From an uncultured Burkholderiales bacterium (GTDB taxonomy: Bacteria; Pseudomonadota; Gammaproteobacteria; Burkholderiales; Burkholderiaceae_C), in assembly GCA_903933115.1 (NCBI GenBank), contig CAIZIT010000113.1, positions 1 to 42,213 on the forward strand: DNA of 42,213 bases, given 5' to 3'. Below are positions 13,903-42,213 of this stretch, one piece after another. The notes beneath the pieces are model-generated. The model had not been told where the DNA came from, did no database searches, and saw only the letters and a list, made by a program, of their open reading frames with translations. Positions within the stretch are counted from its first letter, which is position 1, and the number at the start of each line of letters is the position of its first letter. A program made the translations under genes and the position numbers.

Positions 13903-14442
13903 AGCGCCTATCTCTTTTTTCTTCTCCCTTGAGCCTTCAAGCGAACGTTTGAAGAAATGAAAGGTACCCAGCCACCAGACCCTTGATGGTTGGGTTTTTA
14001 AAACCTCTAGACGTGCCCAACCCACAAAATGCTTGGGTCCTTGGGTCCTTGGGTCCTTGGGTGCTTGGTTTTTCGGGTCCTCCGATCTAACTTTGTTCTC
14101 TCTCTTTCTTCCTGAGCGCATCACACGCTCCACATCTCCTCACCCCCATCAGGGCAAGCCTACCCCCTGGCCAGGCTCGAGACCATTCGGACTTGTCCAT
14201 GGGGCAGGTGTCGGCCGGCCACTCAGCCCTTGAGTACAGTTACGCAGCGTTACGCCGCGTTACAACTTCTTACGCCGATTACCTACTAAAAAGACTCAAG
14301 TTTTTTGACTTCGTGATTTAAACTGATTTTTACCCCTCTCCAACAGATGGTTGTATTGACCCATGATCACTGAATCGGACTCACTCTTGAATACTTGAGG
14401 GTTGAAGTCAAAAAAATTGAACTTTTTTGCGGGAACATATTT
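13903..14442. other. 540-base non-coding region before the divergent flagellin
   Basis: No gene is supported. It contains a four-copy 8-base tandem repeat (14032-14063) and a small cluster of TTACGC-type repeats (14239-14276). I looked for sigma-54 (GG-N10-GC) and sigma-28 (TAAAGTTT-N11-GCCGATAA) elements before the flagellin. GCCGATTA at 14274-14281 has the right -10 look but no matching -35 eleven bases upstream. Confidence 0.5.
14032..14063. repeat. Tandem 8-base repeat, CTTGGGTC x3 plus CTTGGGTG
   Basis: Four adjacent copies, the last differing at one base, in the gap between the glutamate-synthase-like gene and the flagellin gene. It could expand or contract by slippage. No role is visible. 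Confidence 0.85.
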
Positions 14443-16575
14443 ATGAGCACCATCGCCACTGGATCTTCCAACATCAACGCTTTGATCGCGGGCAACGCCA
14501 TGGCCGCGGCCAACACGGCCATCGCGACCTCCACTCAACGCCTGTCCACCCTCAAAAGAATCAACAGCTCAGCCGACGACCCCTCTGGCATCGGCATGGC
14601 CAGCACCCTGAGTGCACAAATATTGGGCTATGCACAAGCCAATAAAAACATCAATCAAGGCATCGCGATGACACAAATCGTGGACACGTCTTTGAGCAAT
14701 ATTCAAACCGCTTTGGCCAGCATGAGAACCCTGGCCTTGTCCTCCGCTTCTACGCTCTCCCCGACTACACTGGCCTCCAACCAGGCCGCCTTCACGCAGT
14801 ACTTGGCTCAAATCAACACCATCACCTCGCAGGCGAACTACAACGGCTTTAATTTGATGAACGGCTCCCTCACAAGCGCCCCCCTTCAAGTGGGCACGAA
14901 TGCAGGCAACAGCGTCACCCTCAATTTACCGACCACCACCACGTCAGCCTTGGGACTGGGGACCCCTTTGGCCCTGAGCTCCGTGGGCTCCAGCACCACG
15001 GCATTGGCACAAGGCGACCTGGTGATCAACAGCTACGCCATTGGCCCAAGCCTGGCCTCCTACGACACCTTGTCTTACAGCGGGAATGCGGGCAGCGCCA
15101 TTGCCAAAGCCAACGCGGTGAACTTGCAACAAAACTTAACGGGTGTGACCGCTACTGTTGGTGCGACCACTGTGGGTGGAAGCGCCATGACCTCTTTGCC
15201 CGCCTCGGCTGTGACCGGCACGTTCACGCTCAATGGCAAAACCCTGAGCGTGACCTTGGGCTCGACCACCGACTATTCAGTGAACAGGGCCAGTGTGGTC
15301 GATGTGATCAATCGAAACAGTGGTGCAACAGGTGTCACCGCAATCGACTCTGGCGACGCCGCACACGGGATCGTTTTGAAGGCTGCCGATGGACGCAACA
15401 TCAACTTGACGCTCGGCGATGTCAACATCACGTCGGCCAATACAGGCTTGGCCGCAGCGGGGACGTATGTGGGCACTTATTCCCTGTACAGCAACTTGGG
15501 CAACGCCATCACCATCGGCACAACGCCTGGGCAAAACTTAAGCAACTCCGATTTCGCCATTGGCACCTATGCGGCCAATTCTGCGCAATTCGCCACCAAG
15601 GCGCCTGCAGCTTCGGCCTTGGCCCCCAGCGTGCTCACCAGCAGCGACCTCAAAATCAACGGCTACAGCATCATTGGGGCCTTGTCCAGCGATGACAGCT
15701 CCACCTTTGCGACAACCACCTCGGTCACGAAAGCCTCGAGCGCCATCGCAACCGCTGCAGCGATCAACAAAAGCACCGCTGACACGGGCGTGAGTGCCCG
15801 AGCCAATGCCAACGTCTTGGTGGGCAATGGCTTTACCACGCCCGTTGGGACGTCCACTTACTCTATGTATTTGAACGGGAGCACTTTTGATCTGACCATC
15901 ACCACGGGCAGCAGCTTGGCGAGCATTGCCTCTGACATCAACACCTACACTGGCAGCACGGGCGTGGTGGCCAGTGACAACGGCTCAGGTCTCACGCTCA
16001 CCGCGAGCGATGGAAGAAGCATTTCTCTTGGGGCGCCCACCTCGATCGCTGCGACCAACGTGGGCCTAGGCGGTCTTGGTGTGACCGACAGCAGCAATAC
16101 CGCTGGCACCGCACTGGGCTATGTGGCCAGTGTCAGCTTGAGCTCCAGCAAACCCTTCACCCTCTCCAGCGGGAGTGCGGGCAACTCCAATTTTGAGAAA
16201 TTGGGTTTTAAAAATGGAACCTTTGGCGGGACCTCTCAAAACCTTAAACTCTCAAGCGCAGATGTCTCGAGCAATGCGACGGCAACCAAAGCACTCAACA
16301 TCATCGATGGCGCCATCTCCCAAGTCTCGACGCTTCAGGGCTACACAGGCGCCATGATCAACAGATTGACCTATCAAAACAACCTGGACACCAGCATGGG
16401 CACCTACAACACCTCTGCTTATTCGAGCCTCACCAGCGCAGACACAGCGGCCGAGACCACGGCACTGGCCAAAGCGCAAATCATTCAAGCCTCCGCCACC
16501 GCCATGTTGGCCCAAGCCAACTTGTCCGATCAAACGGTGTTGAATTTACTGAAATATGAGTTTTTAAGCCACTGA
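14443..16575 (+). CDS. Divergent flagellin with duplicated Flagellin_IN modules
   Basis: 710 residues from ATG 14443; the frame extends to TTG 14395, but ATG fits better and is preceded by GGGAA. The N-terminal helical D0/D1 region is flagellin-like (TQRLSTLKRINSSADDPSGIGMAS, split around LSTLKRINSSADD), but it lacks the usual MA-x-INTN start and has LSTLKR where LSTGKR is normal. The C-terminal D1/D0 region ends AQANLSDQTVLNLLK followed by an unusual YEFLSH extension. Between them are two copies (about residues 191-324 and 402-530) of a bipartite module: D-L-x-I-N-x-Y then V-N/I-N...TGV, and LNG...TGV...DGR-N/S-I. It is alone on the plus strand, with no visible promoter of flagellar type. 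Confidence 0.88.
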   Translation: MSTIATGSSNINALIAGNAMAAANTAIATSTQRLSTLKRINSSADDPSGIGMASTLSAQILGYAQANKNINQGIAMTQIVDTSLSNIQTALASMRTLALSSASTLSPTTLASNQAAFTQYLAQINTITSQANYNGFNLMNGSLTSAPLQVGTNAGNSVTLNLPTTTTSALGLGTPLALSSVGSSTTALAQGDLVINSYAIGPSLASYDTLSYSGNAGSAIAKANAVNLQQNLTGVTATVGATTVGGSAMTSLPASAVTGTFTLNGKTLSVTLGSTTDYSVNRASVVDVINRNSGATGVTAIDSGDAAHGIVLKAADGRNINLTLGDVNITSANTGLAAAGTYVGTYSLYSNLGNAITIGTTPGQNLSNSDFAIGTYAANSAQFATKAPAASALAPSVLTSSDLKINGYSIIGALSSDDSSTFATTTSVTKASSAIATAAAINKSTADTGVSARANANVLVGNGFTTPVGTSTYSMYLNGSTFDLTITTGSSLASIASDINTYTGSTGVVASDNGSGLTLTASDGRSISLGAPTSIAATNVGLGGLGVTDSSNTAGTALGYVASVSLSSSKPFTLSSGSAGNSNFEKLGFKNGTFGGTSQNLKLSSADVSSNATATKALNIIDGAISQVSTLQGYTGAMINRLTYQNNLDTSMGTYNTSAYSSLTSADTAAETTALAKAQIIQASATAMLAQANLSDQTVLNLLKYEFLSH

Positions 16576-24258: not shown

Positions 24259-24705
24259 ATGAAAATTTTTACACATTTGAGCAATTCCCTGAAGCCAACC
24301 GGGTCAGGAGGAAGACACCTGCTCTTGGCCTTAGGGCTTTGCCTTTCATGGAATGCACAGGCTGTTGACTGGCAATCCATGGGCTTGATGGATTTGGGGG
24401 TCTTCTACATTGACAAAGACTCCATCACAAGCCCAGAAGCCAGCAACAAGCACATTCGCCAAGTCTGGAGCATGCTCGACTACCGCGAACCCCAAAAAAA
24501 CGCACTGGGCAAAACCTATCGCTCCAGCCGCTCCTTGATTGAAATCGATTGTGAGGCCAACCGGACCAAAACCGTCTCCCTGAGTTTGCACGCAGGAGCC
24601 CGACTGGGCGGGGAGATCTTGACGAGTGAGGGCGTCATTGGGCCTTGGCAAGCCATTCCACCCGATACGCCACTGGTGCACATCAAAAAAGCCATCTGTC
24701 CTTGA
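24259..24705 (+). CDS. Exported surface-adhesin-E-like protein
   Basis: 148 residues. A signal peptide ends near LSWNAQA (residues 28-36). The mature chain has the pattern of the adhesin-E-like family: a Tyr-Ile-Asp strand (VFYIDKDSI), VWSMLDYREPQ, SSRSLIEIDCEANRTKT, then GPWQAIPPDTPLVHIKKAIC. Two cysteines (in IDCEA and the C-terminal AICP) probably form a disulphide. Many small periplasmic proteins with this fold have no known function. It is divergent from fliO, with about 230 bases between the starts. Confidence 0.7.
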   Translation: MKIFTHLSNSLKPTGSGGRHLLLALGLCLSWNAQAVDWQSMGLMDLGVFYIDKDSITSPEASNKHIRQVWSMLDYREPQKNALGKTYRSSRSLIEIDCEANRTKTVSLSLHAGARLGGEILTSEGVIGPWQAIPPDTPLVHIKKAICP

Positions 24706-27881: not shown

Positions 27882-29237
27882 TCATCCCTCTTGAGCCATG
27901 AGTTGACGCATCTCTTGTCGAGTGCTTTCATAGTCCTGGGAGATGTGCATGTCTTGTCTTAAAAAATTCACCAACCGCTCATGTAGACGTATGGCCTCAT
28001 CCAACTCCAAGTTAGAACCCATTTGATAGGCGCCGACTTGAACCAAGTCGATATTTTGTTGATACAAAGACCAAAGCCTCCTGAGCTTATTGGCTTGTTT
28101 TAAATCATCTGTGCTCAGTAAAGACTGCATCAACCTTGAAATCGAACCATTGAGTTCGATGGCAGGGTAGTGGGCAGAGTCAGCGAGTTTTCTGGACAAC
28201 ATGACTTGGCCATCCAGGGAGGCGCGAGCGATGTCCACAATAGGATCGGAGGCATCGTCGCCTTCTGCAAGGACGGTGTAGATCGCTGTGATCGACCCCA
28301 CACCGTGGCGGCCCACCCCTCCTCGTTCGATCAAATTGGGCAGCAATGCAAACACAGAGGGTGGATATCCTTTAGCGGTTGGCGGCTCGCCAATGGCCAG
28401 TCCAATTTCCCTTTGCGCATGGGCAACACGGGTCAAACTGTCGCACAACATCAAAACATTCAAACCCTGATCCCTAAAATACTCGGCAATCACATGCGTC
28501 ATGTGGGTGGCTTTGAGTCGCAAAACAGGAGACACATTGGCTGGCGCAGCAACGACCACCGATTTGGCCAAGCCCTCCTCTCCCAAGGACTCGCTGATGA
28601 AGGCTTGAACCTCACGGCCACGCTCTCCAATCAAACCAATCACCACCACATCCGCTTTGGTGAAACGGGTGAGCATGCCCAAAAGTACACTTTTGCCCAC
28701 ACCTGAACCCGCCACCAAACCGATGCGTTGCCCGCGACCAATGGTCAAAACGCCATTGATGGCCTTGACCCCAACATCGAGCACCTCGTGAATGGGACCT
28801 CTCTCCATGGGGTTCAAGGGCTTGCCCATCAAAGCCAAAGTGTCTTTGCATTTGGGTGGCGCTTTGCCATCCAAAGGAAAGCCCCTGCCGTCAATCACAC
28901 GCCCAAGCAACTCTGGCCCCAGAGATACTTGCGAAGACAAGCTCATCACACGGACCATATCACCAGGACCCACGCCCACGGGGTCGTTAAAGGGCATTAA
29001 AAATAGGGTCTTGTCGTTGAAACCCACAACCTCGGCCTCGATGCGGTGACCGTGCTGCCCAATCACCTCGCAGCAAGCGCCCAATGGAGCCATCAAGCCA
29101 CGTGTCTCGAGCGTCATGCCCACCAAGCGCACCAAGGTGCCTGTTCTTTGGGGCTGGGGTGACCTCAGGCGTGAGATGTTGGCATCGACCTCTTGCGCGA
29201 AATCCAACACACCATCCAATACAGTTGATTGCATCAT
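27882..29237 (-). CDS. fliI: Flagellum-specific ATPase FliI
   Basis: 451 residues. An F1-ATPase-beta-like export ATPase with Walker A GLVAGSGVGKSVLLGML (AGSGVGKS at 176-183), GLIGERGREVQAF, LMLCDSLTRVAHAQREIGLA and the type III ATPase signature region GEPPTAKGYPPSVFALLPNL. It powers and times delivery of export substrates at the base of the flagellum. The start has two adjacent ATG codons with AAGG just upstream. It begins 16 bases after the FliF-tail-like gene. Confidence 0.97.
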   Translation of the reverse strand: MMQSTVLDGVLDFAQEVDANISRLRSPQPQRTGTLVRLVGMTLETRGLMAPLGACCEVIGQHGHRIEAEVVGFNDKTLFLMPFNDPVGVGPGDMVRVMSLSSQVSLGPELLGRVIDGRGFPLDGKAPPKCKDTLALMGKPLNPMERGPIHEVLDVGVKAINGVLTIGRGQRIGLVAGSGVGKSVLLGMLTRFTKADVVVIGLIGERGREVQAFISESLGEEGLAKSVVVAAPANVSPVLRLKATHMTHVIAEYFRDQGLNVLMLCDSLTRVAHAQREIGLAIGEPPTAKGYPPSVFALLPNLIERGGVGRHGVGSITAIYTVLAEGDDASDPIVDIARASLDGQVMLSRKLADSAHYPAIELNGSISRLMQSLLSTDDLKQANKLRRLWSLYQQNIDLVQVGAYQMGSNLELDEAIRLHERLVNFLRQDMHISQDYESTRQEMRQLMAQEG

Positions 29238-29253: not shown

Positions 29254-29925
29254 TCAGCCTTGGATCATCTTTTTCAAGACACCGGCAACTCGACCTTGCT
29301 CTTGCTGCACGATCATTTGAACCAGCATCAATTTGTCATCAAAGGAGTTCGCATTGTTCATGAGTTCGGGAGGAATGGTGGGCGGTTTGGCTTTCTTCTT
29401 CTCGGCCGCCATTTTGGCTTTCATCGCCTCCATGGAATTGTCCTCTTCCTCATCCTCAAGCGGGGTCTCGGCCTGAAGCTCGGGTGCTGCGGGTTCATCT
29501 TTGGGCTTGTCCGCTGCTGCATCTCCAGGAGCGGGAGCCAGCACTTCTTCGGCTTTGGCCACTTGAGCGTCCCCCTCAGGGGCAGCTTGTAGCGAATCCT
29601 CAATAGGGGCTTCGATCGGTTGCGCAGGCGACTGAGTCGTCTCCATCTGAGGCTCAGCAAGGGGCAAGGGCTTGCTGAGATCGGGCAACTCCAAATTGGG
29701 GTTGGAAGCCATCATCTCTGCATACTCTGGATTGTCGTAGTAGTGACGACCGTGGTGGACTCGCCATGCGTTAAAAGCAGAGTTCACTGAACTCGCCGCT
29801 GCATCCTCGATCTCCAAGCGATCGACTTCCTTCCTGCTGAAGGCCAGTAACATCGGGCGAACCACCAAAAGCAAAAAGCCCAGACACATTGCAGTTCTCA
29901 ATACCGCGTTGACCCAATCAATCAT
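29254..29925 (-). CDS. Small membrane protein with a FliF-like FliG-binding tail (between fliH and fliI)
   Basis: 223 residues from ATG 29925, which has a strong GGAGG six bases upstream and overlaps the fliH stop by eight bases. One N-terminal membrane segment (about 7-28) reads AMCLGFLLLVVRPMLLAF and resembles the second membrane segment of the FliF in this operon (LFLLFLVVVVRPMVRKL). A Pro/Glu/Ala-rich acidic middle (80-165) follows. The last 43 residues (PELMNNANSFDDKLMLVQMI, then VLKKMIQ) closely match the FliF C-terminus (ADMLNTANTYDDKVALIRMI, then VLKNMIK), which in other bacteria binds FliG. I do not know a described protein like this. Inference: a FliF-derived membrane anchor able to hold FliG or compete with FliF. 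Confidence 0.8.
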   Translation of the reverse strand: MIDWVNAVLRTAMCLGFLLLVVRPMLLAFSRKEVDRLEIEDAAASSVNSAFNAWRVHHGRHYYDNPEYAEMMASNPNLELPDLSKPLPLAEPQMETTQSPAQPIEAPIEDSLQAAPEGDAQVAKAEEVLAPAPGDAAADKPKDEPAAPELQAETPLEDEEEDNSMEAMKAKMAAEKKKAKPPTIPPELMNNANSFDDKLMLVQMIVQQEQGRVAGVLKKMIQG

Positions 29926-31330
29926 CTTGATCCTCCTCGTGTACATCCACCACCGGTGCAAGACGCTGGCGAACGTCCTCAATATCTGTGTCCCTTTGTG
30001 CCAAGGGTTGTTTAAAAAACGGAGACTGCTCACGCCAGAGCTCAGGCTGGGCGAGTAAATTGTTGGCCATGGCCTCGAGTCGGTGGCCAATCAAGTCATC
30101 GACTTGCGTATCGTCCGTGATCACACGCACGCTGCCCGGCTGCATGCTTGAGACGGCATGCAGTTGAATGTGGTTGAACATCTCGCCGCTCATCTCTTGA
30201 AGCCTGGCTTTGTCTTGTGTGTTGAGCTCGACAGTCACCATTTGATTGCTGTGGCTGTTGAGTTCATCCAGGCATCTTTGAATCAAACGCTCAATGGATG
30301 CACCTGATAAATTCAACTCTGCCAACACCAACTGCTCGGCGATATGAATGGCCAGTCGCTTCAAAGGCTCGAACAAGCGCTGCGGATGGTTCACAAAATC
30401 ATCAAGTTTGGAGGTCACCTCCTCCAAGAGTTTCTTTTGCGCATCGAGCGCCGTCGTATTTTGCGCCCTCAAAGCATCTCGCTCAGCCTCTAGACCAGCA
30501 CGTTGCTGCTCGAGGGCAAGCGTCAACTCTTCGATTTTCGCTTGCAGCGAAACCTCACTCGCTTGCAAAGCCTGACTTTGATCCAATGCCTTGGCAATTT
30601 GTTCTTGAAGATCTCTCCTCTCGGCTTCAAACTCCTCCATAGCCTCTGCATGGGCTTGCTCAATTCCCTTCAAGAGACCAAGTTGATAGCCCTCGTCAAA
30701 GCTTGCTGAGCTGTGTACCGATGGCGTTTGCGGCATGCTGGATGCTGCGTCTTGGACAAGCTCATCCGAACCTTGAACGCCTAGGATGGACTCGGCTGAC
30801 GCGTCCCTTGAGACCGATGAAAGCTCATCCTTGGAAGAACCCATCAATGGTGCTTCTAAAGCCGATGGGTTTGAATCTCCTAAGCGCTGTTGAGTCAGAT
30901 CTTCGCCTTGTCCGAGATCCTCTTGGAGATCTTCTTCGGCATCCAAAGTGGTGCTCGTATTTGCTTGCTGAGAACCCAAAACCTGCGACAAAGCCACCTT
31001 GCCCCCTTCGGCGTCCAGAGGTGGTTGCTCTAGGCCTTTAGCTTCATTTAGAGAATCGGCGCCTGAGCGAGTAGCATGGTCATCCAATTGCGGCCTTGGA
31101 GCACCATAGGTTTCCAAAACGAAAGAGCTCGGGTTGGTGACCACTTTGGCCATTCGGGGAGGAGCCAGTTTTCTAAAGAGCGCAGTTTCGTAAGCGACCT
31201 TGGGTACACGGTCCCAGTCTTGTCCACTGAACCCGTGGTCTTCACTCTTTTCAGTGAAGAGCATCGGATCCACTGCCCATGAATCGGTCTGGGTTTTGGG
31301 ATGACTTAAGTTAAACAAAGTCCGCTCCAC
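29918..31330 (-). CDS. fliH: Flagellar export regulator FliH, with long acidic N-terminal extension
   Basis: 470 residues if started at GTG 31330, inside the fliG end; ATG 31264 would give 448. FliH proteins are usually about 230-270 residues. The C-terminal half is recognisable: FDEGYQLGLLKGIEQAHAEA (Gly-x-x-x-Gly-like entry to a coiled coil), a long coiled coil (230-310), and the FliH/V-ATPase-E-like end domain (RLAIHIAEQLVLAELNLSG, IERLIQRCLDEL, GSVRVITDDTQVDD). Residues 80-200 are acidic, rich in Ser, Gln and Leu, and look disordered. FliH binds FliI and docks it to FliN in the C ring. Confidence 0.9.
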   Translation of the reverse strand: MERTLFNLSHPKTQTDSWAVDPMLFTEKSEDHGFSGQDWDRVPKVAYETALFRKLAPPRMAKVVTNPSSFVLETYGAPRPQLDDHATRSGADSLNEAKGLEQPPLDAEGGKVALSQVLGSQQANTSTTLDAEEDLQEDLGQGEDLTQQRLGDSNPSALEAPLMGSSKDELSSVSRDASAESILGVQGSDELVQDAASSMPQTPSVHSSASFDEGYQLGLLKGIEQAHAEAMEEFEAERRDLQEQIAKALDQSQALQASEVSLQAKIEELTLALEQQRAGLEAERDALRAQNTTALDAQKKLLEEVTSKLDDFVNHPQRLFEPLKRLAIHIAEQLVLAELNLSGASIERLIQRCLDELNSHSNQMVTVELNTQDKARLQEMSGEMFNHIQLHAVSSMQPGSVRVITDDTQVDDLIGHRLEAMANNLLAQPELWREQSPFFKQPLAQRDTDIEDVRQRLAPVVDVHEEDQDD

Positions 31331-32357
31331 CCAACATCAACTCGCCAGCATCTGAGAGCTTTCTCGCCAAACGCATGATTTTCTTTTGTGTGTCCTCGAC
31401 ATCGGCCATGCGAACGGGACCCTTGGCTTCCATATCGTCCACGAACATGCCGCGGGCACGCTCGGACATGTTGTCCAAAAAGCGTTGCTTGACTTCGGGG
31501 CTTGCGCCCTTCAAAGCCGTCATCAACTGATCGGGCTCCACATTGCGCATGAGCACTTGAATGCCTTTGTTGTCCACAGAGACCAAATTTTCGAAAGTGA
31601 ACATGTTGTCTTGAATCTTGAGCATGATGTCTGGATCAAGATCAGACAATCCATTCATGATCTCCGCCTCCAAATTGGTCTTCGTCATGTTCATGATTTT
31701 GGCTGCTGCCACCACCCCTCCAAAACTGGAAGATTTGGAAGTGGCTGTTTTGGCAAATTGAGCCAACATGATGTTCTCAAGCTCCACCATCGCTGAGGGC
31801 TGAACGGTATCCAGACTGGCCACACGTTGAATCACTTCGGGTCTGATTTCTGGGGGCAAGTAAATCATCACATCTGCCGCCACATTGGGCTCCAAAAGCG
31901 ACAAGATGATAGCGACCACTTGAGGGTGCTCTGTCCTGATCATCTCTGCAATGCCTCTGGCATCCATCCAACTCAAAATATCCAAACCTTTGGTGGCTTG
32001 GTTGGGCATGATTCGACCCAAAACAGAGGCGGCTTTGCTCTCTCCAAGGGCCTTTTTCATCACATTTTCTACATAGTCTGAATTGCCCAAACTGAGGGAG
32101 GTTTGTTTTTTCAACAAATCCACAAACTCATCGAGCACCACATTGACCGCATCCTGGGAAAGCTCAGCGGCTTGAACCATGGCAGCACCCAAAGCTTGAA
32201 CCTCCTTCGGGCTCAAATACTTGATGATGTCAGCGGCTTGATCTTCTCCCAGCAAGAGCATCAAAACGGCTGCCCTTTGCGTCGAGGTCATCGCCTCCAT
32301 CTCAGCTCTGAGAGCTGGAGACCATGTGGCGGATGATAAGGTGTTGAGTTCAGCCAT
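31311..32357 (-). CDS. fliG: Flagellar motor switch protein FliG
   Basis: 348 residues. All three FliG domains are seen: the N-terminal FliF-binding domain (STQRAAVLMLLLGEDQAADI and LSPKEVQALGAAM), the middle domain with the EHPQ motif (RTEHPQVVAIILSLLEP), and the C-terminal torque domain (MFTFENLVSVDNKGIQVLMR, MTALKGASPEVKQRFLDNMS, GPVRMADVEDTQKKI). The protein forms the upper C ring and meets the stator. GGAG six bases upstream supports the start. It follows fliF by 46 bases. Confidence 0.97.
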   Translation of the reverse strand: MAELNTLSSATWSPALRAEMEAMTSTQRAAVLMLLLGEDQAADIIKYLSPKEVQALGAAMVQAAELSQDAVNVVLDEFVDLLKKQTSLSLGNSDYVENVMKKALGESKAASVLGRIMPNQATKGLDILSWMDARGIAEMIRTEHPQVVAIILSLLEPNVAADVMIYLPPEIRPEVIQRVASLDTVQPSAMVELENIMLAQFAKTATSKSSSFGGVVAAAKIMNMTKTNLEAEIMNGLSDLDPDIMLKIQDNMFTFENLVSVDNKGIQVLMRNVEPDQLMTALKGASPEVKQRFLDNMSERARGMFVDDMEAKGPVRMADVEDTQKKIMRLARKLSDAGELMLGGADFV

Positions 32358-32403: not shown

Positions 32404-34512
32404 TCATTTGATCATATTCTTTAAAACACTGGCCATTCTGGCTCTGGTGTTTTCTTCAGAAACAATCATTCGTATTAAAGCAACTTTATCGTCATAAGTG
32501 TTCGCTGTGTTGAGCATATCGGCTGAAATTGCGGGCTTTTTCGGCTTCAGGTGTGACATTCTGGCCTTGATTTCTTCCAAAGTCTCACCCTCCTCGATCT
32601 CGATCTCGTCTCCTGCCTCTTCAAGAGCCGCCGCTCTTGCCGCTTCCTCTTCTTGCTTGATGCGCTCGGCCTCTTCGGCCTCAAGGCGCAATCTTTCTTC
32701 CGTTTCCCTTTGGGCTTGGAGTTTGGCCTCTTCTAGAAGTCTCAACCTCTCCGCCTCGGCTGCCTCTTCGGCTGCGGCACGGTCTGCCACCACTTTGGCT
32801 GCCGCTGCTGCAACGGCTTCAGCGATCCTCTCCGCTTTGATTTTCTCGGCTGCAGCCGCTTCTCTGGCTGCTGCTTCGGCCGCTGCGTTGGCCATGGCCA
32901 CTGCATCAAAGGGTGGCGCTGTCAGTTTTCTCACCATGGGTCTGACCACCACGACCAAGAACAACAGGAACAATACGGCGATCACAGAACTGTTGGCCAC
33001 GCCTGCAATGGTCTCGTCTTTGTACCAAGGCACGGCATCAGGGTCAATTTGGGGCTCAAAGTGTGTGGAGATGACGGTGACCACATCGCCACGCTCTTCG
33101 TTGTAACCCACAGCACCGCGAACCAATTGGTTCAAGCGATCAAGCTCTTCTTGGGTATAGGGAATGGTTGTGGCTGGAGGCGTTCCATCAGCTGGTTTTT
33201 CAACCTTCATGCCTGCTGGAATGGGTCTCTCGTTGATCAAAACACCCACACCAATCTTTTGAATGGTGCCCATGGCTGTCTTCGTGTGACGAACGGAACG
33301 ATCCAACTCGTAATTCTTGGTGCTTCTCGCAATGGTTTGAATGCCTTTTTCAGTCACACCCTTGGTGATGTCTGCTGTTGTGTCTGGTGTGGCTGCAGGA
33401 TTTTGTGGAGGGTTGGGCGGCGTGTTGGTGAGTGAACCAGGAATACCCACTGCATCTTTGAACGTTGCACGGTCCTCTACATAAAGCTCTGAACGGGTTT
33501 TGGGGCCCTTGTCTCTTTGGTCAAAGTCTTCAGTCGTGATTTCTTGCTGGTTAAAGTCCATGGACATGCTCACCTGAGCCGACACATTGGTCTCGCCCAC
33601 AATTGGTGCCAACAACTGAATCAAACGCGTTCTGTAGAGATCCTCCATTTGTTGCTTTTGTTGCAATTGCGCAGAGGTCAATCCCAAAGGCTGCTCGGTG
33701 AGCATTTCGTTCATCAAGCTGCCAAAGTTGTCGATCACGGACACATTCTCTGGTGCCAAATAAGGAACGCTTGAAGCGACCAATTGAATAATGGCGCTGA
33801 CGTTGGCAGAGGACACGGCCTTACCAGGTGCTCGGGTGATCACCACAGATGCTTTGGTAGGCACTCTGTCTCTGACGAAAACGCTTTGCTTAGGCGCGGC
33901 CAAGTGCACGCGGGCACTTTTGATACCAGCAATTTGGGAGATGCTTCTTGCCAACTCTTGCTCCATGGCGTTGTTGTAGCGCACTTGCTCCATGAATTGC
34001 GAGGTGGTCATGGCAGGCATGTCTTTCAAACCATCGATGCCTTGAACTTCAGTTCTGGGCAGTCCTTTCGAGGCGATCAACATGCGAGCTTCTTGGTACT
34101 TGTTCTCAGGCACCATGATTTGACCAGTGGTCATGTCCAACTCGGGCTTGAATTCAGCCGTTCTCAAGGCCTCCATCGCCACTTGCTTGTCCGCATCTGA
34201 GAGCATCATGGTCAAAGGCTTCATCGGTGTGGCTTTCATGTTCATGGATGCCAAAGCAAAGGCCGCCAATACAAACATGATCACAAAGAGGGGTAGCAAT
34301 TTCTTGACCGTCGGTTGTCTCACCATGTCTTTGACCATGCCCATGGGGTCGGTCAACATTTGGTTGCCAACTGTTCTGGCCAAGTCGCCGGGTTTCAAGA
34401 GGCTCGAGCCTGGAGGGGATGTCGGTCCAGGCAAAACGGGAGACGCTCCACCCATTTGAGCTTGACTAGGATCTGTCATTGCAGTGTTCATTGTTGCGCT
34501 TGCTGTGGCCAT
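32404..34512 (-). CDS. fliF: Flagellar MS-ring protein FliF with a long Ala/Glu-rich cytoplasmic insertion
   Basis: 702 residues against about 550 in most species. The first membrane segment (72-91, LLPLFVIMFVLAAFALASMN), the ring-building periplasmic domains (FMEQVRYNNAMEQELARSI, VHLAAPKQSVFVRD, NYELDRSVRHTK) and the second segment (508-526) are normal. The cytoplasmic part is about 175 residues instead of about 90: residues 540-650 are a highly charged Ala/Glu/Arg helix (EAAAREAAAAEKIKAERIA) recalling the TolA stalk. The FliG-binding tail follows (660-702, DMLNTANTYDDKVALIRMI). The N-terminus (1-45) is also extended and Pro-rich. Confidence 0.96.
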   Translation of the reverse strand: MATASATMNTAMTDPSQAQMGGASPVLPGPTSPPGSSLLKPGDLARTVGNQMLTDPMGMVKDMVRQPTVKKLLPLFVIMFVLAAFALASMNMKATPMKPLTMMLSDADKQVAMEALRTAEFKPELDMTTGQIMVPENKYQEARMLIASKGLPRTEVQGIDGLKDMPAMTTSQFMEQVRYNNAMEQELARSISQIAGIKSARVHLAAPKQSVFVRDRVPTKASVVITRAPGKAVSSANVSAIIQLVASSVPYLAPENVSVIDNFGSLMNEMLTEQPLGLTSAQLQQKQQMEDLYRTRLIQLLAPIVGETNVSAQVSMSMDFNQQEITTEDFDQRDKGPKTRSELYVEDRATFKDAVGIPGSLTNTPPNPPQNPAATPDTTADITKGVTEKGIQTIARSTKNYELDRSVRHTKTAMGTIQKIGVGVLINERPIPAGMKVEKPADGTPPATTIPYTQEELDRLNQLVRGAVGYNEERGDVVTVISTHFEPQIDPDAVPWYKDETIAGVANSSVIAVLFLLFLVVVVRPMVRKLTAPPFDAVAMANAAAEAAAREAAAAEKIKAERIAEAVAAAAAKVVADRAAAEEAAEAERLRLLEEAKLQAQRETEERLRLEAEEAERIKQEEEAARAAALEEAGDEIEIEEGETLEEIKARMSHLKPKKPAISADMLNTANTYDDKVALIRMIVSEENTRARMASVLKNMIK

Positions 34513-37114: not shown

Positions 37115-40100
37115 TTAGGCTTGTAACAGCTTCAATACCGATTGCTGTGAGGTGTTGGCTTGCGCCAAAACCGCTGTCGCAGCTTGCTGCATGATCGAGG
37201 TCTTCGCCAATTGAGTACTGGCAGAGGCGTAATCAGCATCCGTGATCGCACTTTGTGAAGTGGTCATGTTCATGGAGGCATTGGTCAAGTTGCTGACCAC
37301 ATGGTCCAATCGATTCATCACCGCACCCATTGTGGCACGGTTTGCATTGACTTGGTTCAAAACATAATCCAACTTGGCAAGTACATCATTGGCACCAGCC
37401 TTGGATCCAATGAAGCTGCGCGTCATGGGTTGGCCATTGATGATCGGGTTGCCGTTGGGGTCTTGTTGACCGAGTCGTCCGGCGTAAACGCCATCGGGGG
37501 CATTGGCGACAGGTGTCAACACAGGCGAAGCAATCGTGGCACCACTGGCGGATGAGAACTGCAAGTTGCCATTCAAAACCGTCACGGACAAATCGGTATT
37601 GCCGTTTTGTGAGTTGATTTGATTTTGAATATCAGCGGCCAAATCATTGACTGTTTTATCGGTTGCAGTCAGATCAATGGTTTTATTGACGCCACCGATG
37701 CTCACGCTGAAATTACCGAAGGGGTTAGACTTAGGAACACCTGGGCCCATAGACACACCGATCAAGGTTTGGGGGCCTTTAGGTGCGTTCACGATCGTTC
37801 CAGGAGCCAAAGGATCCATGTTCACATCCCAAGTGATTTGTCCTGTGATGGGGCCGTTGGCGCCAAAGTCCGCCAAATCAATGGTCACTGTTTGTTGTGC
37901 ATTGGCACCCACTTGGAAAGCCAAGCGTCCAGTTCTTGGGGGGCTCATTTTTGCCGTTGCTGCGTTCACCTCACCACCAAAATTACCCTCTTGGAACCCA
38001 AGAGTGGTGAAGTTACTGATGTCGGGGTTGTATCCATTGCTTCCAGGGGTCACCACAATGGGTTTACTGGATTTCAAGGTCACACCGCCATACAAGGTAT
38101 TGGCTGAAGTGTAGGTTGCACCTGCTCCAACATCGCCTTTGACGCCAGGAGGGTCACCTGCCGTAACGCCCAAACCGAACATCGCAGCAGAGAGTGCAAC
38201 ACCGCCACCACCAGGAGGCGTGGTGTCGTACCAAACAGATACATTTCGACCGTCCTCAGATGTCAAGGTGATGCCACCACTCACATTCATCGATGCCAAA
38301 ATACCGGTGCTGCCCACTTGTGGGTTCACAGCGTTGATCACTGAGTTCAGGCGATCTGTTGAATTGGTCGAGGACAAATCGACGTAAATACCTTGTCCAT
38401 TGATAAAGAGATTGGGCGTTTTTGTGGCATCAGCGGGTCTGACATTCACCACATCCAATTTGGAGCCAGTGATCACCACAGGGTTGGCTGTAGCTGTGAC
38501 GCCCGTTTGCTGAGAGCTTGCATTAATCGCGGCTGCAATTGCAATGCCACTGGCTTGCTTGGAGCTGCTGACAGATTGAGTGTTGCTCACAGCGTCGTCG
38601 GAAGCCAAAGAGGCTCGAATGGCAATGCCATTCAAAATCAAATCATTGGCACCCAAAGACTTGATGTCAGTGGCATGTGTAAACGTGACGGGACTCGAAG
38701 TGGATAGGTTTGCCGTGACGGGTAAACCCAACGTCACCGTGCCACCATTGATGGCTTTCACAGTTTCACCCACAGGAAAACCTGGGCCAGAAATAATGTC
38801 ACCCACTGCAAGACCAACTGCACTTGCAGGGCTGAAGGTGGTAGCCCCGACAGAGACTGCAGCTGATGGAGTAGTGGTCAAGAAAGGGACCACTGTTGCA
38901 CGGGGAGAAGTACTCAATGAAGAGTTGATTTGACTTGTGTAATTTGCAATCTGCAGACCTGCATTGGTGATGTCACCTTTGCTGGTGGTGTCCACATTCA
39001 CGGGCATATTGACCGCACTCTCTAAAGAGTACGAACCAGCCTGAATGCCTTGCTTCAAGCCCGTATTGGCCGAGAAAGCCGCATTGGCACCAGATGTGTT
39101 GTCTGCTGTATTGAAAGAAATTTGGATATTACGACCATCTTCGGCCACCAAGCTCACACCTTGAGCATCGCTGTTGGTATCAATGGCTTTGACACCCGTG
39201 TATTGAGAGATGAAATTGATGGCTTTGACCACAGCGGCTCTGGATTCACGGGGATTGTTGGGCACAGACGTGATCACTGGGCTGGTATAACCGTTGATGG
39301 ATACTGTGCCAGAGACCGCCGCATTGCCCAAAGTCATGGATGCTCCAGCCATCAAATTGGGATTGACAACGGCAGATACACCTGTTTGCGGCGTGACCAA
39401 ATTAATGGCTGCAGCTTTGGCAATTGCGCTGCCCGCCGCATTGAATGGCAATGATTTGCTATCTGTATTCGCAAAGGAAGCACCGACATTGACACCATTG
39501 ATCACCAAATCATTGGCCGTTAAGGGGTTCAATGTTTGAAAGTTAGAACTTAGAGTGACGGTGTCGTTGTTGAAATCTACAGGCGCTCCGCCGGCTGTTT
39601 TTTGAGAAATAGTAATATTGCCTGTTGTGGCAGTAAACACATTGGGCCATGCAACCACTGAAGTATCTATGGTGACCATACCGCCTGTAGCTGTGAAAGG
39701 AGCCACTGGGTTTCCTGAGGGATCTTGCAATAGATTTAAAACAGCTCCATCTGGTTTGGTAAAAGTAGCTGAATTAATATCAGTGCCGTTAGATCCGACA
39801 CTGACAGTCAACTGACCAGCCATACCAAAAGTTAGGGAAGCAGCAGATCCACCAACAGACATGCCGCCAACGGCATTGTTGGTGGTGTTCAAGCCATTGA
39901 GATAGGTTCCAGCAGCAAAGGGAGGACTGGATTGATAGTTGATATCAGACACTGTTTTATAAACAGGCTTGATACCCACACGCTCACCAGCTGAACCGTT
40001 CAGAATAGGAAAACCGTTCCATTCTGTGTTGTTGGAAATTTGAACAATTTGCTTCTTCAATTGTTGAAACTCCAAATCCAGGTAACTTCTTTGTGAGTCG

Positions 40101-40411
40101 CTATTGGTATCATTGGCTGCTTGAACGGCCAACTCACGCATGCGCTGGAGCATGTCGGTGATTTCATTGGTTGCACCCTCAGCGGTTTGAATCAGATTGA
40201 TCGCATCTCCTGAGTTCCTCACCGCTTGGTTCAGACCACGAATCTGGCTGGTCATTCGAGTTGAAATAGCCGCACCAGCAGCATCGTCCCGAGCAGAATT
40301 AATTCTTTTGCCGGTTGACAATTGCTGCATGGCAATTGTCGAATTTCTGTCATTCGTTGCCAGTGCCATTTGCGAGTAAATCGCTTTTACGTTCGTATTG
40401 ATTACAGCCAT
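37115..40411 (-). CDS. Giant flagellin (1098 residues)
   Basis: The N-terminal D0/D1 region is canonical (MAVINTNVKAIYSQMAL, LSTGKRINSARDDAAGAAIS, residues 1 to about 140), as is the C-terminal region (MGAVMNRLDHVVSNL, QLAKTSIMQQAATAVLAQAN, LLQA). About 850 residues of surface domain lie between; ordinary flagellins have 100-300 here. The surface part contains two bipartite Flagellin_IN modules (about 299-430 and 588-727), each with DLxINGxx...AIN...TGV and INGxx...TGV...EDGRN. AGGAG before ATG 40411 supports the start. A sigma-54 promoter lies 48 bases upstream. Such size predicts a thick filament. Confidence 0.95.
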   Translation of the reverse strand: MAVINTNVKAIYSQMALATNDRNSTIAMQQLSTGKRINSARDDAAGAAISTRMTSQIRGLNQAVRNSGDAINLIQTAEGATNEITDMLQRMRELAVQAANDTNSDSQRSYLDLEFQQLKKQIVQISNNTEWNGFPILNGSAGERVGIKPVYKTVSDINYQSSPPFAAGTYLNGLNTTNNAVGGMSVGGSAASLTFGMAGQLTVSVGSNGTDINSATFTKPDGAVLNLLQDPSGNPVAPFTATGGMVTIDTSVVAWPNVFTATTGNITISQKTAGGAPVDFNNDTVTLSSNFQTLNPLTANDLVINGVNVGASFANTDSKSLPFNAAGSAIAKAAAINLVTPQTGVSAVVNPNLMAGASMTLGNAAVSGTVSINGYTSPVITSVPNNPRESRAAVVKAINFISQYTGVKAIDTNSDAQGVSLVAEDGRNIQISFNTADNTSGANAAFSANTGLKQGIQAGSYSLESAVNMPVNVDTTSKGDITNAGLQIANYTSQINSSLSTSPRATVVPFLTTTPSAAVSVGATTFSPASAVGLAVGDIISGPGFPVGETVKAINGGTVTLGLPVTANLSTSSPVTFTHATDIKSLGANDLILNGIAIRASLASDDAVSNTQSVSSSKQASGIAIAAAINASSQQTGVTATANPVVITGSKLDVVNVRPADATKTPNLFINGQGIYVDLSSTNSTDRLNSVINAVNPQVGSTGILASMNVSGGITLTSEDGRNVSVWYDTTPPGGGGVALSAAMFGLGVTAGDPPGVKGDVGAGATYTSANTLYGGVTLKSSKPIVVTPGSNGYNPDISNFTTLGFQEGNFGGEVNAATAKMSPPRTGRLAFQVGANAQQTVTIDLADFGANGPITGQITWDVNMDPLAPGTIVNAPKGPQTLIGVSMGPGVPKSNPFGNFSVSIGGVNKTIDLTATDKTVNDLAADIQNQINSQNGNTDLSVTVLNGNLQFSSASGATIASPVLTPVANAPDGVYAGRLGQQDPNGNPIINGQPMTRSFIGSKAGANDVLAKLDYVLNQVNANRATMGAVMNRLDHVVSNLTNASMNMTTSQSAITDADYASASTQLAKTSIMQQAATAVLAQANTSQQSVLKLLQA

Positions 40412-41253: not shown

Positions 41254-42213
41254 TTATTTCAACAGAGCCAATACGTTCTGTGCTGACTGGTTAGCTTGAG
41301 CTAACATGGCAGTCGCAGCCTGAGAAATGATCTGTGACTTGGCCAAGTTCGTTGTCTCAGTGGAGTAGTCGGTGTCCAAAATACGGCTTCTGGAAGCAGT
41401 GATGTTGGTGTTCATTGTGGCCAGGTTGCTGACAACGCTGTCCAAACGGTTCAAATAAGCACCGGCTTTAGATTGATTGAGTGAAACGGTCTTGAGCGCA
41501 GCGTCAATGGCAGTGATTGCATCCTGCGCACCTGACTGAGTAGACACGTCCACTGCAGCAATCTTCAGACCGTTGTCTGCACCGCCATAAGTCCCAGTTT
41601 GGAAACCCAAGGCATTCAAATTGTCATCACCAGTGGTACCGCTGGCCACAGTAAATTGCTTGTCAGATTGCAATGCAACTTGAGCGTAGGTGGTGATCGC
41701 ACCAGCACTTGTAGCTGCTGCACCAACACTTGCTGAACTGGTCGCATCACCTAGACCGATCGCTGCAGCGGATGAGGCAGCATCAACACCAAGTGAAATG
41801 TTACGTCCATCTGCAGCTGTATAAGTCACACCGGTTCCGTTATCAGAAGCAACCACGCCTGTTTGACTAGAGTATTGGTTAACCAAATTGGCCACATCAG
41901 CACGAGTTGAATTCGCACCCAAGCTTGCATTGATGGTCACACCATTCAAGTAAATGCTAGCAACTGCGCCTTGCGTGAAACTACCACCTTGAATGACATT
42001 GGCTTTTGCAACAGCGGTTACACCTGTCAAATTGGTCGACTTGTTAATGGCAGCAGCAATTGCAATTGCACTAGCTGCTTTAGTAGAAGAAGCAGCGCTA
42101 GTGTCAGAAGAGGTGTCATCTGTGCTCAATGCAGCACCAATCACCACTCCATTCCAACTCGCTCTATAGCTTCGTAATAACAACTCTTGATCTTCACAAA
42201 AATAAGGGGCAGG
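41254..42213 (-). CDS. Flagellin, C-terminal part (cut by window edge, abnormal upstream end)
   Basis: 319 codons are open to the right edge. The C-terminal part is a clear flagellin: VSNLATMNTNITASRSRILD, YSTETTNLAKSQIISQAATA and QSAQNVLALLK, preceded by one bipartite Flagellin_IN module (NGVVIGAALSTDDTSSDTS through AADGRNISLG). The canonical N-terminal domain is not in the window. The outermost 25 or so codons (PAPYFCEDQELLLRSYRASW) do not look like flagellin, although the equivalent place in the other two genes reads like DLxIN. This may be an assembly edge or a rearrangement. TTG 42183 is not a credible start. Confidence 0.85.
   Translation of the reverse strand, partial: PAPYFCEDQELLLRSYRASWNGVVIGAALSTDDTSSDTSAASSTKAASAIAIAAAINKSTNLTGVTAVAKANVIQGGSFTQGAVASIYLNGVTINASLGANSTRADVANLVNQYSSQTGVVASDNGTGVTYTAADGRNISLGVDAASSAAAIGLGDATSSASVGAAATSAGAITTYAQVALQSDKQFTVASGTTGDDNLNALGFQTGTYGGADNGLKIAAVDVSTQSGAQDAITAIDAALKTVSLNQSKAGAYLNRLDSVVSNLATMNTNITASRSRILDTDYSTETTNLAKSQIISQAATAMLAQANQSAQNVLALLK

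Follow-up and report, generated by a model that had tools for sequence, protein, structure and literature searches.

A conserved membrane protein with a FliF-type tail, encoded between fliH and fliI in a genus of Burkholderiales, as a candidate second holder of FliG

The C-terminal tail of FliF is bound to, or folded together with, the FliG_N domain of FliG, and this joint links the MS-ring and the C-ring of the flagellar motor (PMC11087270, PMC11528121, PMC6079021). The C-termini of FliF act as the template for the C-ring, and whether the two rings match has long been a puzzle (PMC11087270, PMC10128058, PMC12222027). One study proposes 33 FliF to 34 FliG in its particles and states that the FliF:FliG ratio need not be 1:1 (PMC11087270), and another supports 34 FliF and 34 FliG, that is 1:1, in E. 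coli (PMC10128058). In C. jejuni the C-ring is wider through a wider MS-ring (PMC12222027). Accessory proteins are also known to surround the MS-ring. In H. pylori the membrane protein FlgV rings the MS/C junction with a symmetry of its own (PMC10655999), and the E-ring is said in a review to be lacking in beta- and gamma-proteobacteria (PMC13023049).

Here we describe a gene, called X below, that encodes a small membrane protein ending in a tail like that of FliF. We consider X to be real, conserved and undescribed within the literature that we searched, and our certainty about its function is moderate. Full-text searches of the open-licence literature found no published description of an X-like protein, in agreement with an earlier note on this DNA, whose author knew of none.

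Gene X and its similarity to FliF

The window is a stretch of 42,213 nucleotides (contig CAIZIT010000113.1 of assembly GCA_903933115.1, an uncultured Burkholderiales bacterium) that carries flagellar genes in the order fliE-fliF-fliG-fliH-X-fliI-fliJ (Table 1). The earlier note had pointed out a frame of 223 residues with a strong GGAGG ribosome site and an 8-base overlap with fliH, and we could confirm all three on the minus strand. The overlap joins the start region of X to the stop of fliH, and a gap of 16 bp separates the end of the frame (223 codons) from fliI. That the second tail serves a second FliG was ruled out for this genome: both FliG_N matches fall in a single frame, the later one at the place of FliG_M. 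Elsewhere in the window there is a long frame that we named flagellin-type by eye, and two other frames match it by BLASTP.

Table 1. Positions in the window of gene X, its parts and the other features discussed.
Feature	Position	Strand	Basis or remark
Frame matching the 1098-aa flagellin-type frame	14395-16572	+	BLASTP
Adhesin_E (PF16747)-like gene	24259-24705	+	in the fliJ-fliO gap
fliI	27882-29237	-	downstream neighbour of X
Gene X, 223-aa FliF-tail companion protein	29254-29925	-	between fliH and fliI; start ATG at 29925, stop TGA at 29254-29256
X FliF-type tail, residues 181-222, presumed FliG-binding	29260-29385	-	sequence match to FliF tail
X disordered linker, Ala/Pro/Glu-rich, residues 81-160	29446-29685	-	pLDDT 37-53; weakly constrained
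X second predicted helix, residues 36-57	29755-29820	-	AlphaFold2
X membrane anchor, residues 11-29; contains the FliF TM2 motif VVRPM	29839-29895	-	hydropathy peak; AlphaFold2 helix 2-31; profile match to FliF
GGAGG ribosome-binding site of X	29932-29936	-	6 bases before ATG
fliH (PF02108)	29918-31330	-	8-bp overlap with X
fliG	31311-32357	-	single fliG found in the genome
FliG_N of fliG	31986-32291	-	would be the partner expected for the X tail
fliF, MS-ring protein at full length (702 aa) that has a tail of its own	32404-34512	-	both FliF Pfam domains, PF01514 and PF08345
FliF C-terminal tail, counterpart of the X tail	32407-32541	-	alignment with X tail
FliF region with the two-residue insertion between tail helices	32407-32592	-	
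FliF second membrane helix, VVVVRPM at its end	32944-33000	-	hydropathy peak
1098-aa flagellin-type frame	37115-40411	-	named by eye
Frame matching the 1098-aa flagellin-type frame	41257-42213	-	BLASTP

X has one hydropathy peak compared with two in FliF. This peak contains VVRPM, which confirms the membrane segment with that motif proposed in the earlier note. The periplasmic ring-building domains PF01514 and PF08345, both present in the window's FliF, were not found in X by Pfam, and no Pfam or NCBIfam family matched X at E values up to 1. An AlphaFold2 model of X, made from an alignment of 32 rows, has a mean pLDDT of 65 and a pTM of 0.22 and is confident in the anchor only and moderate in the tail. 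Its helix at 2-31 reaches pLDDT values of about 88-97. Further helices are placed at 36-57, 66-74 and 161-178, with low confidence from about 81 to 160, and the tail is modelled as helices 186-190 and 195-222 (pLDDT about 65-80). Foldseek with this model gave no match, and a search of solved structures with the X profile or the tail profile as query returned chance matches only. Residues 48 to about 82 show strong conservation in 10 of 33 X, those of the window's subclade, and weak conservation in three others.

By BLASTP, residues 169-222 of X align with residues 649-702 of the window's FliF (25/56 identical, E 3e-10 in this single comparison), and in the pairwise run the X anchor had no match to FliF. 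Profile A1, which represents 32 X proteins, matched the window's FliF in a whole-genome scan with an E of 1.4e-27 over profile positions 4-218, which takes in both the anchor (VVRP) and the tail, and it matched the FliF of genome G140 with an E of 8.4e-32. When X alone was searched against 61 genomes, it also matched the C-terminus of a FliF frame of about 700 aa in many relatives and in the window's genome. The match to the FliF tail that the earlier note had claimed is therefore real, and the profile similarity is significant.

A profile of tails from X, from the companions described below and from FliF of this sort aligned with ordinary FliF tails at a probability of 89.5% (E 2e-6, profile comparison). 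A FliF of known structure is reached by way of an ordinary FliF, the tail of which aligned only weakly with chain 8z5s (second domain, 8.3 bits). Two positions, D35 and R52, are invariant across 37 FliF and companion tails. The tail of the window's FliF carries two residues more (SEENTRAR) than that of X (QQEQGR). This insertion between the tail helices, as SEENTRAR or the like, is found in FliF of the window and of seven other loci of the genus, and in none of the X or other FliF tails compared. With one helix and no ring domains, X is not itself a FliF, but it probably works like the FliF tail.

Distribution and selection in the genus

The search for X covered 37 genomes of the genus, with the window's genome among them, and 24 genomes that represent other families of the order. 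Of the 37, 31 gave an X-like match; of the 24, none did, and 18 of these 24 have a FliG_N match. Absence from all close relatives, which the earlier note had named as a finding that would speak against its reading, is thus not the case. All 28 genomes of the genus with a FliG_N match have X, counting a copy cut by a contig edge (G029). Three more (G007, G013 and G025, 69-82% complete) have an X-like match and no FliG_N match; the match in G013, counted among the 31, is a frame of 120 aa that seems to lie at a contig edge and could be X or FliF. The six genomes without X are also without FliG_N and the FliF C-domain; five of them are 62-88% complete and one (G017) is 99% complete. X is also present in G140, a further genome of the genus that is a single contig.

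The earlier note had suggested looking at the fliH-fliI gap in relatives. X lies there in every assembly that we examined (32 loci in 31 assemblies, with G018 and G029 left out). In the protein database it has at least 100 relatives, most of them nameless or hypothetical, two called VirB10-like and one called FliF/YscJ.

For the most part, purifying selection acts more strongly on the anchor and tail of X than on its linker. In 14 species pairs, pN/pS was 0.00-0.30 for residues 1-40, 0.21-0.47 for residues 41-160 and 0.03-0.16 from residue 161 to the end; some species occur in more than one pair, several pairs are close to saturation at synonymous sites, and the gappy alignment makes the linker values rough. 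One of the 14 pairs (L032 and L036) has an anchor value of 0.30, no lower than its linker value of 0.27. The two ends of the protein matter most and the middle acts as a spacer. X does not look like a decaying duplicate: there is no stop inside the X matches, the gene is present in 28 of 28 genomes with FliG_N, and the tail is strongly constrained.

FliF-type tails on other membrane proteins

In two further families of Burkholderiales (f18 and f47), other membrane proteins also have a FliF-type tail at their C-terminus, a finding that goes beyond the earlier note, which dealt with one window. The bodies that bear these tails have 1, 2 or 4 predicted membrane helices by hydropathy. Tail profile A2, which detects FliF tails of this sort only, had matches in 12 of 399 genomes of the order and 16 of 323 of the class, and companions with ordinary tails would be missed by it. 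We ran an ordinary-tail profile (A5) on 200 genomes of the order and on 7 of genus g22. It matched in 134 of the 200, in FliF-sized frames in all but four cases; two of these four are parts of FliF and the other two led us to g22.

Within family f18, genus g18 has a companion that we call Y in 7 of 11 genomes. Y is a frame of 260-443 aa with four predicted membrane helices (a fifth is doubtful in one frame) and a FliF-type tail at its end. FliF with this type of tail is found in 5 of the 11, of which four have Y and one (G402) has a broken copy. Among the other three genomes with Y, G404 has a fragment of FliF, and G406 and G407 (75-76% complete) have no match to the FliF C-domain. G053, G367 and G405 have an ordinary-tail FliF and no match to Y. 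Genus g482 of the same family has a tail-bearing frame of about 260-269 aa in 7 of 8 genomes, including all five with a FliF match; two genomes have this Y and no FliF match, and G882 has neither. Two membrane helices were seen in each of the three g482 companions that we measured. FliF and intact Y are on different contigs in all nine f18 genomes in which both were located.

Two side observations concern these loci. An Adhesin_E (PF16747) gene precedes Y in the three g18 loci scanned (L069, L060 and L083). Of 42 loci searched, 13, among them the window, have Adhesin_E-like genes in the gap between fliJ and fliO, encoded on the other strand from the fli genes. This may be a coincidence. The linker of the g482 companions (L077-L079, residues about 130-180) is made of PDG repeats (YPDGRI/YPDGSI), perhaps as a spacer, and these repeats drew other PDG-repeat proteins into the database search.

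In genus g200 (family f47), FliF of this type occurs in 3 of 14 genomes. G742 has a one-helix companion of 150 aa, Z, between fliF and fliG, and the database holds further members of Z (P0147 and P0149-P0151). G892 (L119) has just a tail remnant, after the fliF stop and immediately before fliG, and G865 has no companion frame at the fliF-fliG site. In genus g22, from a third family, 3 of the 7 genomes (G057 L126, G266 L124 and G371 L134) have a tail-only frame of 49 codons, like the ordinary FliF tail, located between fliF and fliG. It is likely coding only in G057 and G266, because pN/pS is 0.23 between these two and 0.50 and 0.82 against G371. Such frames might possibly give free FliG-binding peptides.

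We rejected several other candidates. The short tail-bearing frame of G444 in the class survey is the 3' part of a FliF gene, as is that of G248, and a 214-aa frame of G038, close to where a contig begins, itself contains a match to the FliF C-domain. Nine of the 16 entries P0152-P0167 were read and look like FliF C-termini, whole or cut. P0115 joins a ribosomal-protein-like sequence to a companion tail; it looks like a contig chimera and was dropped.

When we compared profiles, X and the g482 companions aligned in the tail only (probability 98.5%), and the g482 and g18 companions likewise in the tail alone. The tail trees use about 60 columns. In a tree of 80 rows with a distant FliF outgroup (one row of which, F18_L055, is mislabelled), a 100/100 branch splits X from the FliF and Y tails and places X towards the outgroup, not inside the FliF of its genus. 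The branch between X and FliF tails is long (0.91 changes per column) and that of the outgroup very long, and the position of X could be due to long-branch attraction or to a different partner. In a tree of 45 rows without the distant outgroup, X and the FliF of its genus form one side of a branch (96/86). The Y of g482 groups with the g482 FliF (95/88), and the Y of g18 branches beside the g18 FliF. Z tails do not fall with their own FliF in the best tree. Grouping of companion tails with the FliF of their own genus is what we would expect if both fit the same FliG. Repeated capture of the tail is the better explanation but is unproven, because a single clade of all companion tails is not rejected (p-AU 0.13), and concerted change to fit one FliG is an alternative to it.

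The earlier note had proposed that X is a truncated FliF paralogue that kept the anchor and the hook and lost the ring-building domains. The similarity of tail and anchor, the lack of PF01514 and PF08345, the synteny, the 96/86 branch and the selection mostly on both ends support such an origin.

The arm between membrane and tail has a similar length in X and FliF. In 21 genomes, the VVRP-type motif and the tail are 134-181 residues apart in X (mean 160) and 134-187 apart in FliF (mean 151), with no significant correlation between the two within the genus (rho 0.37, p 0.098). Measured from the hydropathy peak, the arm is 133-187 residues in FliF of the genus. By the same hydropathy measure, FliF and companion have 90 and 91 residues in G742, 153 and 172-176 in g482, and 105-167 and 98-176 in g18 (L051, with a doubtful extra peak, was omitted). 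FliF of the same tail type in four genomes in which we found no companion has 62, 65, 72 and 80 residues (L059, L057, L056 and L076; hydropathy). Ordinary FliF of 15 other Burkholderiales genomes has 57-104 residues in all after the second helix, and three g18 members in which no companion was found have 105-119. This survey of ordinary FliF left out L091 (wrong frame), L105 (a second, 482-aa frame of G057) and L103, L104, L106 and L120 (no measurable frame). The arm-length comparison covers few lineages, which are not independent enough for a test.

Possible roles of X and comparison with known systems

Our best explanation, in which we have about even confidence, is that X is a component of the rotor that would hold FliG beside FliF, as a structural companion of FliF. 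Its single helix would lie in the inner membrane and its C-terminus would be cytoplasmic, in the manner of FliF TM2, given the homology and the positive charges after the helix. Some of the FliG subunits of the C-ring would be held by X instead of FliF, so that the joint between MS-ring and C-ring would be mixed and the FliF:FliG ratio in the finished motor might depart from 1:1. The likeliest benefit would be that FliG has more seats than FliF could offer by itself, or that the joint is stronger.

We favor this role because X is a further membrane protein encoded in the fliF cluster, with a homologous tail and anchor, is kept where FliG is kept (28 of 28 genomes), has a fixed place between fliH and fliI, and is constrained at both ends. 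It is also favored by the distance from membrane to tail, which is alike in X and FliF on average and in G742, and by the return of FliF-type tails on other anchors in two further families. The companion role is weakened by the linker lengths of X and FliF, which are not significantly correlated within the genus, by the long branch that cuts X tails from FliF tails in the 80-row tree, and by the one pair of 14 in which the linker is at least as constrained as the anchor. The two tails may not bind FliG alike, because the two-residue insertion differs between them in the window's subclade. In addition, the 1:1 view of E. coli (PMC10128058) and the wider MS-ring of C. jejuni (PMC12222027) mean that extra FliG seats are not known to be needed.

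More tentatively, we suggest that some motors may have a mixed MS/C-ring interface, in which dedicated companions would have arisen more than once by placing a FliF tail on another anchor, with FliG seats outside the FliF ring and a C-ring size not fixed by the number of FliF.

Of the other explanations, an assembly factor is the likeliest, though we consider it unlikely. Here X would catch FliG, and perhaps FliH/FliI, at the membrane before or during formation of the MS-ring, hand it to FliF and leave the finished rotor. The operon position and the fliH overlap in the window would fit this, and an anchor with a flexible arm and a hook suits a tether; however, a transient tether would not need an arm as long as that of FliF.

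Less probable still is a docking adaptor, in which the FliF tail would clip some other membrane module (residues 36-82 in X, multi-helix bodies elsewhere) onto the C-ring as a FlgV-like accessory ring or a regulator. Tails on bodies with different numbers of predicted helices, unlinked outside the tail in the profile comparisons made, point in this direction, as does the FlgV ring at the MS/C junction of H. pylori (PMC10655999). In the genus of X, however, the body is little more than the anchor, with conservation of residues 48-82 mostly confined to the 10 of 33 X of the window's subclade, and X has one helix compared with two in FlgV and no family match.

We find it improbable that X is a limiter that competes with FliF for FliG and so sets the number of flagella or C-rings. 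Its predicted site is the same as that of FliF, and the tail-only frames of g22 would suit competitors, but a competitor needs neither an anchor nor an arm of FliF length, and a place in FliF's own gene cluster is an odd way to limit FliF. In many polar flagellates the flagellar number is set by FlhF/FlhG.

Least probable, by our estimate, is a tail that no longer binds FliG, with X as a diverged FliF fragment that has an unrelated job or as a decaying duplicate: the long branch in the tail tree and the decay of such genes suggested by the sporadic g200 companion and the broken copy in G402 are in its favor, but the low tail pN/pS, the 28 of 28 presence and the invariant D35 and R52 speak against it.

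If X is indeed a companion of FliF, FliG could be seated in a second way, by a distinct tail donor that is conserved across a genus and has look-alikes on other anchors elsewhere. X bears on the question of what sets the size of the C-ring.

Compared with FliF, X has the TM2-like helix with VVRPM, a homologous tail of about 40 residues and a cytoplasmic arm of similar length, but it is without the first membrane helix and the periplasmic domains and is encoded by a separate gene, with an intact FliF in the same cluster. It resembles FlgV of Campylobacterota as a small accessory protein of the inner membrane at the MS/C-ring junction, a position shown for FlgV and proposed for X (PMC10655999). 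From its description, FlgV has two membrane helices and a GFFxG motif and contacts FliF by helices in a model, unlike X, and the passages on FlgV in that report mention no FliF-like tail (PMC10655999). The E-ring proteins FlgY, FlbB and MotE are likewise accessory proteins around the MS-ring, many of them with one membrane helix, but the E-ring surrounds the periplasmic collar and its proteins have an ARM-like MgtE_N domain, PF03448 (PMC13023049), which Pfam did not find in X and for which Foldseek gave no structural match either.

In the literature searched, the nearest described protein is the FliF paralogue of Chlamydia, which is also altered and reduced (PMC4768692). In contrast to X, it keeps two ring-building motifs and has a C-terminal fusion to a FliG domain, and the account of it in that paper's relevant passages does not present it as a companion to a full FliF (PMC4768692). 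FliF-FliG gene fusions support the joint of FliF tail and FliG_N as the connection between MS-ring and C-ring (PMC6079021, PMC10128058). Those fusions are 1:1, whereas X would be an additional and separate donor of the tail.
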